Of a DNA stretch of 50,615 nt, positions 11,357 to 19,889 are shown in pieces. The notes below the pieces were generated by a model. The model saw nothing but the letters and a program-made list of their open reading frames with translations, was not told where the DNA came from and made no database searches. The DNA comes from a virus, in IMG/VR virus record IMGVR_UViG_3300035670_000307, positions 1-50,615 of that record, one strand, 5' to 3'. The stretch's first letter is position 1, and each line of letters begins with the position of its first letter. The position numbers and the translations under genes are program-made.

Positions 11357-11385
11357 TACTCCCTAAGCGGCTAGGGAGTGGCTGT

Positions 11386-12333
11386 GTGGCAGCGTATTAC
11401 AACGAGATCGATCCTTACGCTGCTCAATGGCTTCGCAATCTGATCAAGGCCGGACACATCGCCTCGGGTGATGTGGATGAACGCAGCATCCGGGATGTGA
11501 AGTCTGATGACCTACGCGGCTACACACAATGTCATTTCTTCGCTGGAATTGGCGTCTGGAGCCATGCTCTACGAAGAGCAGGGTGGTCAGATGACGTTCC
11601 TGTTTGGACTGGATCCTGCCCCTGCCAGCCCTTCAGTATCGCTGGCAAGCAAGGCGGGTTCGAAGATGACCGCCACCTTTGGCCAGTCTGGTTCGATCTC
11701 ATCAAAGAGTGCCGCCCTGCAGTCGTCCTTGGAGAGCAGGTTGCGAGCGCTCTCGAGTGGATCGATCTTGTATCGTCTGACTTGGAAGGACAGGATTACG
11801 CCTTCGGGGCGTCGGATCTGTGCGCTGCGGGCTTCGACGGTGCGCACATCAGGCAGCGACTCTACTTCTGCGCATCAGATGAAAGGGTGGATCACACCAG
11901 CTCAAAGAGACTGGAAGGATACGCCTGGTATGGCCGTAGTAAGCCAGACAGGGCGCAAGAGGCTGGATCAGCTGCCGAGAGAAGCGGGCTTGGCTGGTTG
12001 GCCAACTCCGACAGTAGGGAACGCCAGCGGGTCGCAGATGGCGAAGGATGCGAGCACGACGGGTCGCAGGCCGGATGGCAGCAAAGCGACAGTGAGCTTG
12101 AATCAGGTAGCATCACAGATCGTCCCTGTCCGCCTATGCTCGGACGGAACCCTGCTGACTGGCTATTCTGCAGAGATGGAAAGTGGCGGCCGGTTGAACC
12201 CGGCACATTCCCGATGGCTCATGAGATTGCCCAAAGAGTGGGACGATTGCGCGCCTACGGCAATGCCATAGATGCCGAAACAGCTACTGCATTTTGCACA
12301 GCTGCGAGACAATCCATTATGCAGGCTGCATAA
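11386..12333 (+). CDS. C5 cytosine DNA methyltransferase
   Basis: Motif I (FFAGIG, about residue 51), catalytic motif IV (GSCPCQPFS, with the nucleophilic Cys, about residue 83), motif VI in the form VVLGEQV, motif VIII (RQRLYF) and a motif IX/X region (RLRAYGNAID) occur in the right order. The enzyme methylates C5 of cytosine and probably protects phage DNA from host restriction. The 315 residues are normal for phage enzymes. The GTG start follows AGGGAG. Motif VI has G in place of the usual E of ENV and Q in place of N. A second long frame is nested within this gene. Confidence 0.9.
   Translation: MAAYYNEIDPYAAQWLRNLIKAGHIASGDVDERSIRDVKSDDLRGYTQCHFFAGIGVWSHALRRAGWSDDVPVWTGSCPCQPFSIAGKQGGFEDDRHLWPVWFDLIKECRPAVVLGEQVASALEWIDLVSSDLEGQDYAFGASDLCAAGFDGAHIRQRLYFCASDERVDHTSSKRLEGYAWYGRSKPDRAQEAGSAAERSGLGWLANSDSRERQRVADGEGCEHDGSQAGWQQSDSELESGSITDRPCPPMLGRNPADWLFCRDGKWRPVEPGTFPMAHEIAQRVGRLRAYGNAIDAETATAFCTAARQSIMQAA
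11591..12271 (+). CDS. Nested overlapping gene inside the methyltransferase, 226 aa
   Basis: This frame lies wholly inside the methyltransferase gene, in a different rightward register. Its product starts MTFLFGLDPAPASPS and contains LTWKDRITPSGR, QRDWKDTPGM, RLDQLPR, GWPTPTVGN and LNPAHSRWLMRLP-x-EWDDC. I recognise this pattern from a phage protein family usually annotated as hypothetical or methyltransferase-associated. GGGTGG lies 4 bases before the ATG at 11591. Both frames therefore look like real proteins. The role is unknown; a methyltransferase partner or target-specificity factor is possible. Confidence 0.6.
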   Translation: MTFLFGLDPAPASPSVSLASKAGSKMTATFGQSGSISSKSAALQSSLESRLRALSSGSILYRLTWKDRITPSGRRICALRASTVRTSGSDSTSAHQMKGWITPAQRDWKDTPGMAVVSQTGRKRLDQLPREAGLAGWPTPTVGNASGSQMAKDASTTGRRPDGSKATVSLNQVASQIVPVRLCSDGTLLTGYSAEMESGGRLNPAHSRWLMRLPKEWDDCAPTAMP

Positions 12334-16034: not shown

Positions 16035-17513
16035 ATGATGACTCTCAAAGAAGCACCGGGCTTAACGTTGGCGTCCGAACGGGCGGATCACATGAGGCTC
16101 GTTATATCGCCCGGTCTGGACACAGAGCGCAGGAGCAAGCTGGGTCAATTTATGACGCCGGCACCTGTTGCAAGCCGTATGGCTGACATGTTTTCAGAGA
16201 TGCCTGATCATGTGCGCCTGCTTGATGCAGGGGCTGGGATTGGAGCTCTGACAGCTGCTTTCGTTTCCAAAGCGATCTCGTCGGATCAAAAACCGAAGTC
16301 TATTAGCGCGACCTGCTTTGAGGTGGATCCGCAGATGGCCAAGCATCTAGCCGAGACGCTCGAGCATTGTGCCGACGCGTGCGCAGAGGCTGGGATCGAA
16401 TTCACCTCGGAGATCGTGCCAGACGATTACATCCTAGTATCGGCCGAACCGCTGATCAGTAAAGCCCGCACGTTCAACCGCGCCATTCTCAACCCGCCAT
16501 ACGCCAAGATTGCCACCACCTCGAAATGGAGGCTCGCTCTCCGAAAGGTGGGGATTGAGACGGTGAACCTGTATTCCGCCTTCATTGCTCTGGCGATAAA
16601 CCAGATGGAGCAAGGTGGGGAGATCGTGGCGATTACACCCCGGTCGTTCTGCAATGGACCCTACTATCAGCCGTTCCGCAGGCACATGCTGGATAACACC
16701 TCACTCCTAAGGCTGATGGTGTTTGAATCCCGAAAAAAGGCTTTCGCGGATGATGACGTCTTGCAGGAGAACGTGATCTTCCAGCTTCGGAAGGATCATG
16801 ACCAGCCGGAGACAGTGAGGCTCGAGACTGACACCGGAGACGCCCGGCTCGTGCCATTCGTCGACGTGGTGCACCCGCGTGACAAGAACGCATTTATCCG
16901 GCTGACTATCTCCGACGATGATGCAGAGCTTGCCAAACGTGTGCAGTCTCTCCCGTGCTCTCTGGAAGACTTGGGCATCAAGGTATCGACAGGTCGTGTT
17001 GTCGACTTCCGTGCCAAGCAGCAACTTCGCAAAGATGCCGGAGCTGACACCGCTCCCTTGATCTATGCCAGTCACATGAAAGCCAGCCGTATCGTTTGGC
17101 CGATCCCTGACTTCAAAAAGTTCAACGCTCTGGCAATCGACGATCACACCAGACCGCAGCTTGTGCCAGCTGGTCGCTACGTCCTGACCAAGCGGTTTTC
17201 ATCGAAAGAAGAGAAGCGCAGGATCGTTGCTGCGATCTATGATGCTCCGGAACCCGCTGGCATCGATAACAAGATGAACTACTTCCACAGCGGCGGCACC
17301 GGCTTGCCAGAATATCTCGCTGTGGGCTTGTGCGCGTTCCTGAATTCAACAGCGGTGGATGACTACTTCCGTCTGTTTTCCGGGCATACACAGGTCAATG
17401 CCACTGACCTTCGAACGCTTCACTACCCGACCAGGCCGCAACTCGAGAAGCTCGGGAAGCTGGCACCGGAAGGGCAGGAAGCAATCGACGCAGCTGTTTC
17501 AGCCTTGATTTAA
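16035..17513 (+). CDS. N6-adenine DNA methyltransferase of a PstI/BsuBI-like system
   Basis: The 492-residue protein has KLGQFMTP near residue 36, the AdoMet motif LDAGAGIGALTAAF near 62, and the catalytic motif NPPY near 155. This is the order of gamma-class N6-adenine methyltransferases. Its size is close to that known for M.PstI. It converges with a BsuBI/PstI-type endonuclease gene, overlapping it by 4 bases at the stop codons, so it should be the modification half of a type II system. ATG 16038 is an equally good start. Confidence 0.88.
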   Translation: MMTLKEAPGLTLASERADHMRLVISPGLDTERRSKLGQFMTPAPVASRMADMFSEMPDHVRLLDAGAGIGALTAAFVSKAISSDQKPKSISATCFEVDPQMAKHLAETLEHCADACAEAGIEFTSEIVPDDYILVSAEPLISKARTFNRAILNPPYAKIATTSKWRLALRKVGIETVNLYSAFIALAINQMEQGGEIVAITPRSFCNGPYYQPFRRHMLDNTSLLRLMVFESRKKAFADDDVLQENVIFQLRKDHDQPETVRLETDTGDARLVPFVDVVHPRDKNAFIRLTISDDDAELAKRVQSLPCSLEDLGIKVSTGRVVDFRAKQQLRKDAGADTAPLIYASHMKASRIVWPIPDFKKFNALAIDDHTRPQLVPAGRYVLTKRFSSKEEKRRIVAAIYDAPEPAGIDNKMNYFHSGGTGLPEYLAVGLCAFLNSTAVDDYFRLFSGHTQVNATDLRTLHYPTRPQLEKLGKLAPEGQEAIDAAVSALI

Positions 17514-18511
17514 TCGAAGGACGAAACGAGCAGCTGCTTGGCCGGATCTGCCTGAATCCAGATGTAGCTTCCGACAGCGATGTTGCGGTGTGCGGCCTGA
17601 CGAGCAGCGGCGTCCTTCCAAGTCAGATACGTTGTGGTGAAGCCAATGTCGGCCTTGCCATAACGCTCGGCAAACTTGGTCATGTTTGTGACCTTGGTCA
17701 GATCCACCTCGCCATCGCTGGTGACGGCTTCAATAACCCAAAGCTTGTCGGTCTCTGGATTCCAGAGCAGCACGTCAGGCATGGCATCGCCAAGCTCGAG
17801 CTTAACGCCTGCCTTCTCCATAGCAGCGGCTTCGTCAGGGCTGATGCGGTCGCCGTCGCTGTCGTCAACGTAGAGCACCTTGTAGCCAGGCAGAAACTTG
17901 GCCGCGTAGTGGTCGACCGATGCCTTGATCAATTCGCCGTGATTGTTGTCGACAAGTCCCTTAGCTGCCTCTGCGATCTGTGCCTGGAATTCGAGACGCT
18001 TGCGGGAGACGTCCTTATTGGCCCACTCGGAGAGCATTGCGCTCCACTCGCTATCGTCTGCCATCAGAACAGCCTTGAAGCCGTCTTCCAGCTTGTAGGC
18101 TGACGAGGGTGACTTCGGCTTGGGATGACCGGCGATGAAGTTGCCTTCGTGCAGATACACTGCCTCAAATCCGCCAAGATCGCGAAGGGGCTTGATCCAG
18201 TAGTCCCGGCCTTCACGATCCAGCTTGGTCTTGCCACGCTGAAGAATGCCGATGTGGCAAGCGATCTGTGCAGTGGTGGCCCCATCACCAAACTTTGCAC
18301 CAGCTGGAGGGTTCGACATCCAGCTGTCGGTTTCATCGTCTAGGAGCGCATATACGGCGTCGATCAGATCCACGTTCGAAAGTGCGATCTTCTCGAGAAC
18401 GGCCTTCACCTTGGCCTTTGAGACGCCTTGGAATTCTTCGGGAACAGGCTTCCCCGTAGCTTTGATACGCTCTTTCCGGAGCGCCGCTGCTACGTCGTCT
18501 ACTTTAGCCAC
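17510..18511 (-). CDS. PstI/BsuBI-family restriction endonuclease
   Basis: The C-terminal 120 residues match the BsuBI/PstI endonuclease domain: GDAMPDVLLWN, then WVIEAVTSDGEVD, and FTTTYLTW. The PD...EAVTS part is the PD-(D/E)XK-like catalytic centre. About 333 residues, as for R.PstI. I moved the start to GTG 18511 because GAGGTG lies 6 bases upstream; the frame also opens at 18520. The pair would cut unmodified DNA of competing phages while the lysogen is protected by the convergent methyltransferase. Confidence 0.85.
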   Translation of the reverse strand: MAKVDDVAAALRKERIKATGKPVPEEFQGVSKAKVKAVLEKIALSNVDLIDAVYALLDDETDSWMSNPPAGAKFGDGATTAQIACHIGILQRGKTKLDREGRDYWIKPLRDLGGFEAVYLHEGNFIAGHPKPKSPSSAYKLEDGFKAVLMADDSEWSAMLSEWANKDVSRKRLEFQAQIAEAAKGLVDNNHGELIKASVDHYAAKFLPGYKVLYVDDSDGDRISPDEAAAMEKAGVKLELGDAMPDVLLWNPETDKLWVIEAVTSDGEVDLTKVTNMTKFAERYGKADIGFTTTYLTWKDAAARQAAHRNIAVGSYIWIQADPAKQLLVSSFD

Positions 18512-18602
18512 TAGAATCACCTCATTGATAACTAAGGTGAAGCTAGCGGCGGATCGTTAAAACTCCGAATCTCATAAACTGCATTATGGTGGAAATTCAA
18601 AG

Positions 18603-19889
18603 CTATCTGGCGAGCAACATCTTCTCCATGTCTGATGCGACCGTGTTACCTTCACCACGCCGGTGCTTGAACAGGTGCACGTAGATCTTGAGCGTTACGT
18701 TGGTATTCGCATGGCCAAGTGTATCAGCGACCAGCTGTGCTTCCTTGCCAGCATTGATCAGGAGAGACGCGTGGTAGTGTCGGCAATCGTGCGGCGTCCA
18801 CACGTTCTTGCCGTCTGATTTGAAGCCAGCTGCTGTCATCAGATCCGACCATTGGCGTCTGGTGAAATTGTTGGTGTTGAGCGGCTTCTTCCGATCCGTG
18901 CCGAAAATGAACTCGCCTGGTTCGCGGTCGTTCGACCGGACATAGAGCGTGCGCAAAATCTGCATGAAGTCCTTGCCCATCAGGATCGTGCGGATCGAGT
19001 GCTTGTTTTTGGGAGCGCCTATCTTGCCAGAACGCTTGCGAGCGCGACGTATCGAGATTGTCCGCTTATCCCAGTCAACATCACCCCACTGGAGCGCAGA
19101 TGCCTCTCCTATGCGGGCGCCACTGGCAATCAGGAAGTAGATCAGCGGGCGTGCCCACTCCCACGATTTCATCCGCTGCTGTTCCTGCACCTCTCCCATG
19201 CCGCGTCCAGACTGCCCGGGGATCTTGCCGGTTGCTGCCAGAGCATCGGCCGCGTCGAGAATGCGCTTTACCTCGTCAGGCGACAGGAAAGATTCCACCG
19301 GCACGAGATCGCCATCTTCGTTAAGCTCGAGCTCGTCCTTGATCTGGAGGTTCTTGATTGCTGCGGCCGGATCCACAGGCATCGAGCCGATCTGCACCTG
19401 GTAGCCAAGCGCCTGCTTGACCACGCCCAAAGCCCGGTTGGCAGCGTCTCGCGTGTGATCAGTAGCTACACGGTCACGCCACTTCCGTAGCATCGGAGTG
19501 TTAAGCTCTGAAATCTTCAGGAGGCCGATTGTCGGATTGATGATCGTCCTGATGGAGCTGCGGTATCTGTCAGCTGTTGCCTGCTCGATAGGCATGCGCC
19601 CATCAATGCCGACCTTCTCTGCCATAGACAGCCACTCGCTGCAGGCGTCGGATATCGTCGACTTGGTATCCTTGGCCAGCCTTCCGACCGTGCGCAGGCG
19701 TGTTTTCTGCTCTTCCTGCCATTCTCGAGCTTCCTGAAGGGTATCGAACCACTTGGAAGTAACGCGCCGGAACGATCCAGATTCCGTCTTGTCAGATTTG
19801 TCGGTCACATAGGCCCGATATTGCCTACGTGCTTTTCCACGAGAATCATTGACTCTCGATGATATTCCGAGTGGTAATTTGCTAGCCAT
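18603..19889 (-). CDS. int: Tyrosine integrase
   Basis: The 428-residue protein has an N-terminal arm-binding and core-binding part, and a catalytic domain with the Arg of ASGARIGEASALQW, the HxxR of TPHDCRHYHAS, then LGHANTNVTLKIYVHL with the second His and the catalytic Tyr. It recombines attP at 14692-14741 with a host tRNA-Met gene. The gene is about 3.9 kb from attP, with the restriction-modification genes in between, which is farther than usual. It is divergent from the HTH gene at 19914. Confidence 0.93.
   Translation of the reverse strand: MASKLPLGISSRVNDSRGKARRQYRAYVTDKSDKTESGSFRRVTSKWFDTLQEAREWQEEQKTRLRTVGRLAKDTKSTISDACSEWLSMAEKVGIDGRMPIEQATADRYRSSIRTIINPTIGLLKISELNTPMLRKWRDRVATDHTRDAANRALGVVKQALGYQVQIGSMPVDPAAAIKNLQIKDELELNEDGDLVPVESFLSPDEVKRILDAADALAATGKIPGQSGRGMGEVQEQQRMKSWEWARPLIYFLIASGARIGEASALQWGDVDWDKRTISIRRARKRSGKIGAPKNKHSIRTILMGKDFMQILRTLYVRSNDREPGEFIFGTDRKKPLNTNNFTRRQWSDLMTAAGFKSDGKNVWTPHDCRHYHASLLINAGKEAQLVADTLGHANTNVTLKIYVHLFKHRRGEGNTVASDMEKMLLAR

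Follow-up and report, generated by a model that had tools for sequence, protein, structure and literature searches.

Layout of the locus

In the viral record IMGVR_UViG_3300035670_000307, a frame resembling a DNA methyltransferase contains a second long frame on the same strand, and the question raised by this locus is whether both frames are genes and, if so, what the inner one contributes to the outer one. All coordinates refer to the window, which is the whole 50,615-nt stretch of this record. The outer frame (gene A), the nested frame (gene B) and their shared part were defined as follows:

11373-11378, + strand: ribosome site of gene A, AGGGAG
11386..12333, + strand: gene A, C5-cytosine DNA methyltransferase, putative catalytic (alpha-like) subunit, 315 aa, GTG start
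11507..12271, + strand: gene B, nested +1-frame gene (putative beta-like subunit), 254 aa from ATG 11507
about 11629..12258, + strand: dual-coding core (A residues 82-291), where the silent sites of A are frozen as judged from codon homozygosity

Gene B could also start at 11564 or 11591, with the same stop at 12271. The 226-residue version described in the sequence-only reading runs from the internal ATG 11591 to 12271, and all four motifs quoted for it were present. Gene A is preceded by primase/helicase-like genes and followed by a repressor-like gene. A perfect 8-bp inverted repeat (ACTCCCTA/TAGGGAGT) was also noticed at 11358-11379, with the ribosome site of gene A in its 3' arm; folding of a hairpin over this site was no better than that of shuffled sequences (z -1.4).

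Gene A as a C5-cytosine methyltransferase

Gene A was matched by the profile PF00145 (7e-13, 49.1 bits; cut-off, i.e. gathering score, 22) and by phrog_363 (6e-77, covering residues 1-309). Its conserved motifs, the invariance of which was scored in an alignment of 55 relatives, and its variable part are listed below:

11533..11553, + strand: motif I-like HFFAGIG, after a II/III-like YYNEIDPYA segment; F52 and G54 invariant
11620..11628, + strand: motif IV, catalytic PCQ (C80); P79 and C80 invariant
11731..11739, + strand: motif VI, GEQ (a variant of ENV); G116, E117 and Q118 invariant
11851..11859, + strand: motif VIII, RQR; R156 and R158 invariant
11899..12135, + strand: variable linker, residues 172-250, predicted to be disordered (pLDDT about 34-59)
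12259..12270, + strand: motif X core, GNAI; N293 invariant, G292 and A294 at least 90%

P79, C80, E117, R156, R158 and N293 were unchanged across the 55 relatives, and motif VI reads EQ instead of EN. Motifs I, IV, VI, VIII and IX-X had initially been described as intact. This description held for I, IV, VI, VIII and X and failed for IX, since no motif IX was recognised in gene A and its counterpart was found in B. The motif order is also permuted: in gene A the II/III-like segment precedes the I-like one (11386-11560) instead of following the canonical order I-II-III-IV, which is kept in Paenibacillus- and ShiLan-type relatives. In the AlphaFold2 (AF2) model, residues 1-165 mostly had a pLDDT >80, together with a C-terminal helix, and residues 172-250 were disordered. 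The best solved match of the model was M.HhaI (VIA Z 16.5, 168 residues). Gene A was counted as a C5-methyltransferase despite its permuted motifs because the profile, the fold and the catalytic motifs all fit.

Coding status of the nested frame

To assess the coding status of B, its stops were compared with the number obtained when the synonymous codons of every A gene were permuted, a procedure that leaves both the protein and the codon usage unchanged. For the window by itself, the open frame was only modestly improbable (no stop against 3.5 expected, P about 0.01). In 113 non-redundant relatives, only 10 stops were observed against 395±15 expected. Seven of these lie at the natural C-terminus of B and two upstream of its start, so that the only true interruption is the one in locus L061, which has an ATG shortly downstream of it. 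The loci fetched with A alone contributed none of the 10. Similarly, 74 bacterial loci fetched with B alone had no B-frame stop, against 212±10 expected. No such depletion was seen in the third frame of the 113 loci (1350 stops observed, 1168 expected) or in the +1 frame of 11 other genes in the window.

The silent sites of A gave a second line of evidence. Nearly every silent third-position change in A alters B, because the third codon position of A is the second position of B. Homozygosity at four-fold third positions was 0.32 for A residues 1-81, 0.66 for residues 82-170, 0.90 for residues 255-291 and 0.35 after residue 291; when pooled, it was 0.73 inside the constrained span against 0.32 outside. 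Codon homozygosity was near expectation in the earlier residues and rose to 0.59-0.78 from residue 81 on, compared with 0.29-0.37 expected. Both measures placed the edges at the same positions, giving a constrained stretch of about 11629-12258 that lies inside B and ends at the B C-terminus. These comparisons show purifying selection on B as a protein and strongly support double coding. The sequence-only reading had taken both frames for real genes, each conserved, and had proposed an analysis of synonymous-site constraint in related phages. When this analysis was run on the relatives, the silent sites of A were frozen within the stretch just given; frequent B stops beside an intact A were not seen, B being open in essentially every relative. 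Both frames are present and, judged from stop depletion and silent-site constraint, B is coding, which bears the proposal out.

Start signals of B were also searched for in the 113 loci. The ATG equivalent to position 11495, 32 codons upstream of 11591, is kept through the use of GAT for Asp-37 in 82 loci, against 38±5 by permutation. A Shine-Dalgarno site in A codons 32-34 combined with this ATG occurred in 56 loci (7.3±2.5 expected), and a strong Shine-Dalgarno site combined with the ATG in 30 (1.8±1.3 expected). A start codon precedes the conserved part of B in all but one of the 113. In the window, the conserved ATG at 11495 immediately precedes a TGA, so B must start at 11507, 11564 or 11591; none of these three candidates has a clear Shine-Dalgarno site.

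Distribution of the overlap

In a tblastn search of 50,697 phage records, A-like frames were found in 368 and B-like frames in 209. All of the 80 IMG/VR loci fetched with B and the 80 fetched with A alone hold both frames, with B always in the +1 frame and in the same register, and each of 80 bacterial-genome loci fetched with B (80/80) has an intact A in one frame and B in +1. Stand-alone B genes were absent among the 160 loci (80 viral and 80 bacterial) fetched with B. A strict association of A and B is shown by these counts: B lies inside A in 160 of 160 loci, and every one of the 80 loci fetched with A contains B. Two expectations of the sequence-only reading have to be revised accordingly. 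The nested family, supposed to lie normally beside methyltransferase genes, occupied the +1 frame inside one in every one of the 160 B-fetched loci. The overlap, supposed to be rare, is the normal state of a large family of phage methyltransferases.

The titles of the bacterial records include Alpha-, Beta- and Gammaproteobacteria, desulfovibrios, Acidobacteria and Bacteroidetes, as well as a Phycisphaerales MAG, Zavarzinella (Planctomycetes) and Geminisphaera (Verrucomicrobia). The same A/B register was found in methyltransferases with the canonical motif order, for example those of Paenibacillus phages, which have about 27% identity to A over the matched part. In a divergent canonical-order group of 49 loci, 27 B-frame stops were observed against 286±13 expected, and in a divergent short group (L216-L246, 11 loci) none against 37±4.5. 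The overlap is also present in N15 gp58, Kagunavirus, Krischvirus and Vequintavirus. Its breadth is notable, as it occurs with both motif orders and in hosts of several phyla.

Three loci (L165, from Krischvirus LF73P4, L054 and L075) have a single indel in the variable region that shifts the A and B frames in the same direction, which may be a sequencing error, decay or a functional rearrangement. A match on a Klebsiella aerogenes plasmid proved to be a phage-like copy in decay, and the annotation lists no restriction enzyme close to it.

Features of gene B

Gene B was matched by phrog_31772 (1e-31) and phrog_1008 (4e-24), and profile searches gave no Pfam or NCBIfam match. The family of A (phrog_363) and both families of B are labelled 'DNA methyltransferase' in PHROGs. 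Since these families match the B frame, annotators had met it earlier; the labels say nothing of the overlap or of A and B being a single enzyme. Two segments of B stood out:

11702..11839, + strand: helix (66-82) and beta hairpin (89-111) of B, LTWKDRITPSGRRICALRAS; pLDDT 77-91 over most
12188..12247, + strand: motif IX-like segment of B, RLNPAHSRWLM-LP-EWD; hhalign E 5.8e-7, prob 92

The DNA of the helix and hairpin overlaps motif VI of A and the stretch up to motif VIII. The DNA of the disordered linker of A (11899..12135) also encodes recognition-like repeats of B (GWITP, QRDWKD and LAGWPTPT). In 11896-12000, where B carries its GW-TP, RDWKD and LAGWPTP repeats, identity to the window was 46% for B and 22% for A, with 1.85 and 1.04 bits, respectively. 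The AF2 model of B was poor overall (pLDDT 60, pTM 0.31), and neither a significant Foldseek match nor a sequence match was found in the PDB. Matches in BFVD were sequence relatives only, one of them named 'Methyltransferase'.

The C-terminus of B, GRLNPAHSRWLM-LP-EWDD, was aligned by hhalign with the segment RLAPAFSEWMMGWPAGWV, which directly precedes motif X in single-chain methyltransferases of the mycobacteriophage type; this match is short, covering 23 columns. Judged by its position, the C-terminal segment of B is motif IX, the motif not recognised in A.

Comparison with known two-subunit methyltransferases

A heterodimeric C5-methyltransferase, M.EcoHK31I (YGGCCR) of Escherichia coli, was reportedly described by Lee, Kam and Shaw in 1995. 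There, the gene of the small subunit lies within that of the large one in a different frame, a defining feature of the family. The present locus has this layout too, B being coding and lying inside the A gene in another frame. The large subunit of M.EcoHK31I has motifs I-VIII and X and the small subunit has motif IX (PMC3404938), and in terms of motif content this division recurs here, with I-VIII and X on A and a IX-like segment on B. There are also differences. The present genes occur in phages and prophages of many hosts, and their motifs I and II/III are permuted. Moreover, the predicted recognition domain of M.EcoHK31I was assigned to the large subunit (PMC3404938), whereas the evidence here points to a recognition region in the small chain B.

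Another naturally split C5-methyltransferase, M.AquI (CYCGRG), likewise has motif IX on its small subunit. However, M.AquI is cut in the variable region and has both IX and X on the small subunit, whereas here A keeps motif X, and B lies within the A gene rather than following it.

The two-subunit architecture is thus already known from M.EcoHK31I, and GenBank occasionally annotates both genes, as in phages K1ind2, fTaEco01 and Diva ('g49 internal gene'). B is named 'Mte8' in K1ind2, fTaEco01 and PMG1, which we take to be the UniProt mnemonic of an EcoHK31I protein. Other records have one of the two frames: in N15 gp58 only A is annotated, and in Pseudomonas phage PMG1 (L413) only the nested frame B, the methyltransferase itself being absent from the annotation. 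In the literature searched, which lay largely outside the subscription journals, no paper was found that describes such an overlap as common to phage methyltransferases in general, and the searched passages of a review of viral overlapping genes and of papers on P. larvae phages are silent on it.

A probable two-chain enzyme and alternative explanations

We consider it likely, with a probability of roughly 80%, that a single DNA stretch here specifies both subunits of a C5-cytosine methyltransferase, with B as the second (beta) subunit. The sequence-only reading had tied the two proteins together in evolution but had not suggested a joint enzyme. A would be translated from its own GTG and supply the cofactor and catalytic core (motifs I-VIII) and motif X, having neither a folded recognition domain nor a motif IX of its own. 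On the same message, ribosomes would initiate B independently at an internal start, and motif IX and the target-recognition-like region would come from B. Together, A and B would form a single enzyme acting on a specific site of the phage genome, and this self-methylation would probably let the phage escape host restriction. As far as can be judged from sequence, B would be made in this phage and bind A, both being needed for activity. The recognition region is suggested to lie in B rather than in A because the middle of A is disordered and B is better conserved there.

Three other explanations were weighed against this one. If B were untranslated, its open frame and its similarity among relatives would be by-products of the conservation of protein A, codon usage and high GC. 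The P value of about 0.01 obtained from the window alone would leave room for this, but the silent sites of A are frozen only within the B span and B is more conserved than A in the middle region, so it is refuted as far as sequence evolution goes, with hardly any probability left. Codon usage as the source was rejected, as the depletion of B stops persists under synonymous permutation in the 113 relatives, the 74 bacterial loci and the divergent groups. It is also very unlikely that ribosomes pass from A into the B frame after motif VIII by programmed frameshifting, giving one fused chain with the recognition region and motif IX. Such an order does exist in a single frame in the ShiLan-type mycobacteriophage enzymes. 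However, the constraint on B begins at about A residue 82, well upstream of motif VIII, and residues 75-81 just before this boundary have no extra nucleotide conservation; the internal ATG and Shine-Dalgarno signals are far above chance, and a B start codon lies upstream of the conserved part in nearly every relative.

A separate function of B deserves more weight. B could be a real, separately translated protein that was overprinted by chance and has a role outside the catalysis of A, for example in regulation, in anti-restriction or in acting on the host, since selection on B alone does not reveal what B does and B has no Pfam or PDB match. This is nevertheless unlikely: none of the 160 loci has B without A, the B C-terminus aligns with the place of motif IX in single-chain methyltransferases in which the LPTP repeats and IX share the methyltransferase frame, and a small subunit with motif IX has a precedent in M.EcoHK31I. 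The two-chain enzyme was therefore retained as the preferred explanation.

Possible origin of the overlap and consequences

In the ShiLan-type mycobacteriophage methyltransferases (L168 2321-3490, L170, L172, L173 and L183), the methyltransferase frame itself includes B-like LPTP repeats and motif IX as a fusion, and the overlapping frame can still be read as the N-terminal half of B. This half has 0 stops against 11.4±3 expected, a result given little weight because the span was defined by the B match itself. It is possible, if rather doubtful, that a large share of the phage C5-methyltransferases descends from an ancestor with the overlap and that the ShiLan-type single chains are later fusions of the overprinted frame into the catalytic frame. 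The recognition and motif-IX part would then have arisen, or long persisted, overprinted inside the catalytic gene. If so, an overprinted gene became a standard enzyme domain, and recognition specificity would evolve in one frame with the other frame riding along.

The locus is an example from dsDNA phages of a long overlap on one strand, with strong support and about 630 bp under constraint in each frame, and offers a clean system for studying how two proteins share one sequence. Hundreds of phage genes named 'DNA cytosine methyltransferase' are probably half-annotated, with the second subunit missing or listed in place of the enzyme. If the two-chain enzyme is real, a recoded A cloned alone would lack activity, and predictions about methylomes or anti-restriction would not hold.

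The window contains a further methyltransferase at 16035-18520, where an Eco57I-type N6 methyltransferase (+ strand) and a BsuBI/PstI restriction endonuclease domain (- strand, PF06616 8e-22) are convergent with a 4-nt overlap and adjoin an integrase at 18603-19889. This pair is a probable phage-borne restriction-modification system.
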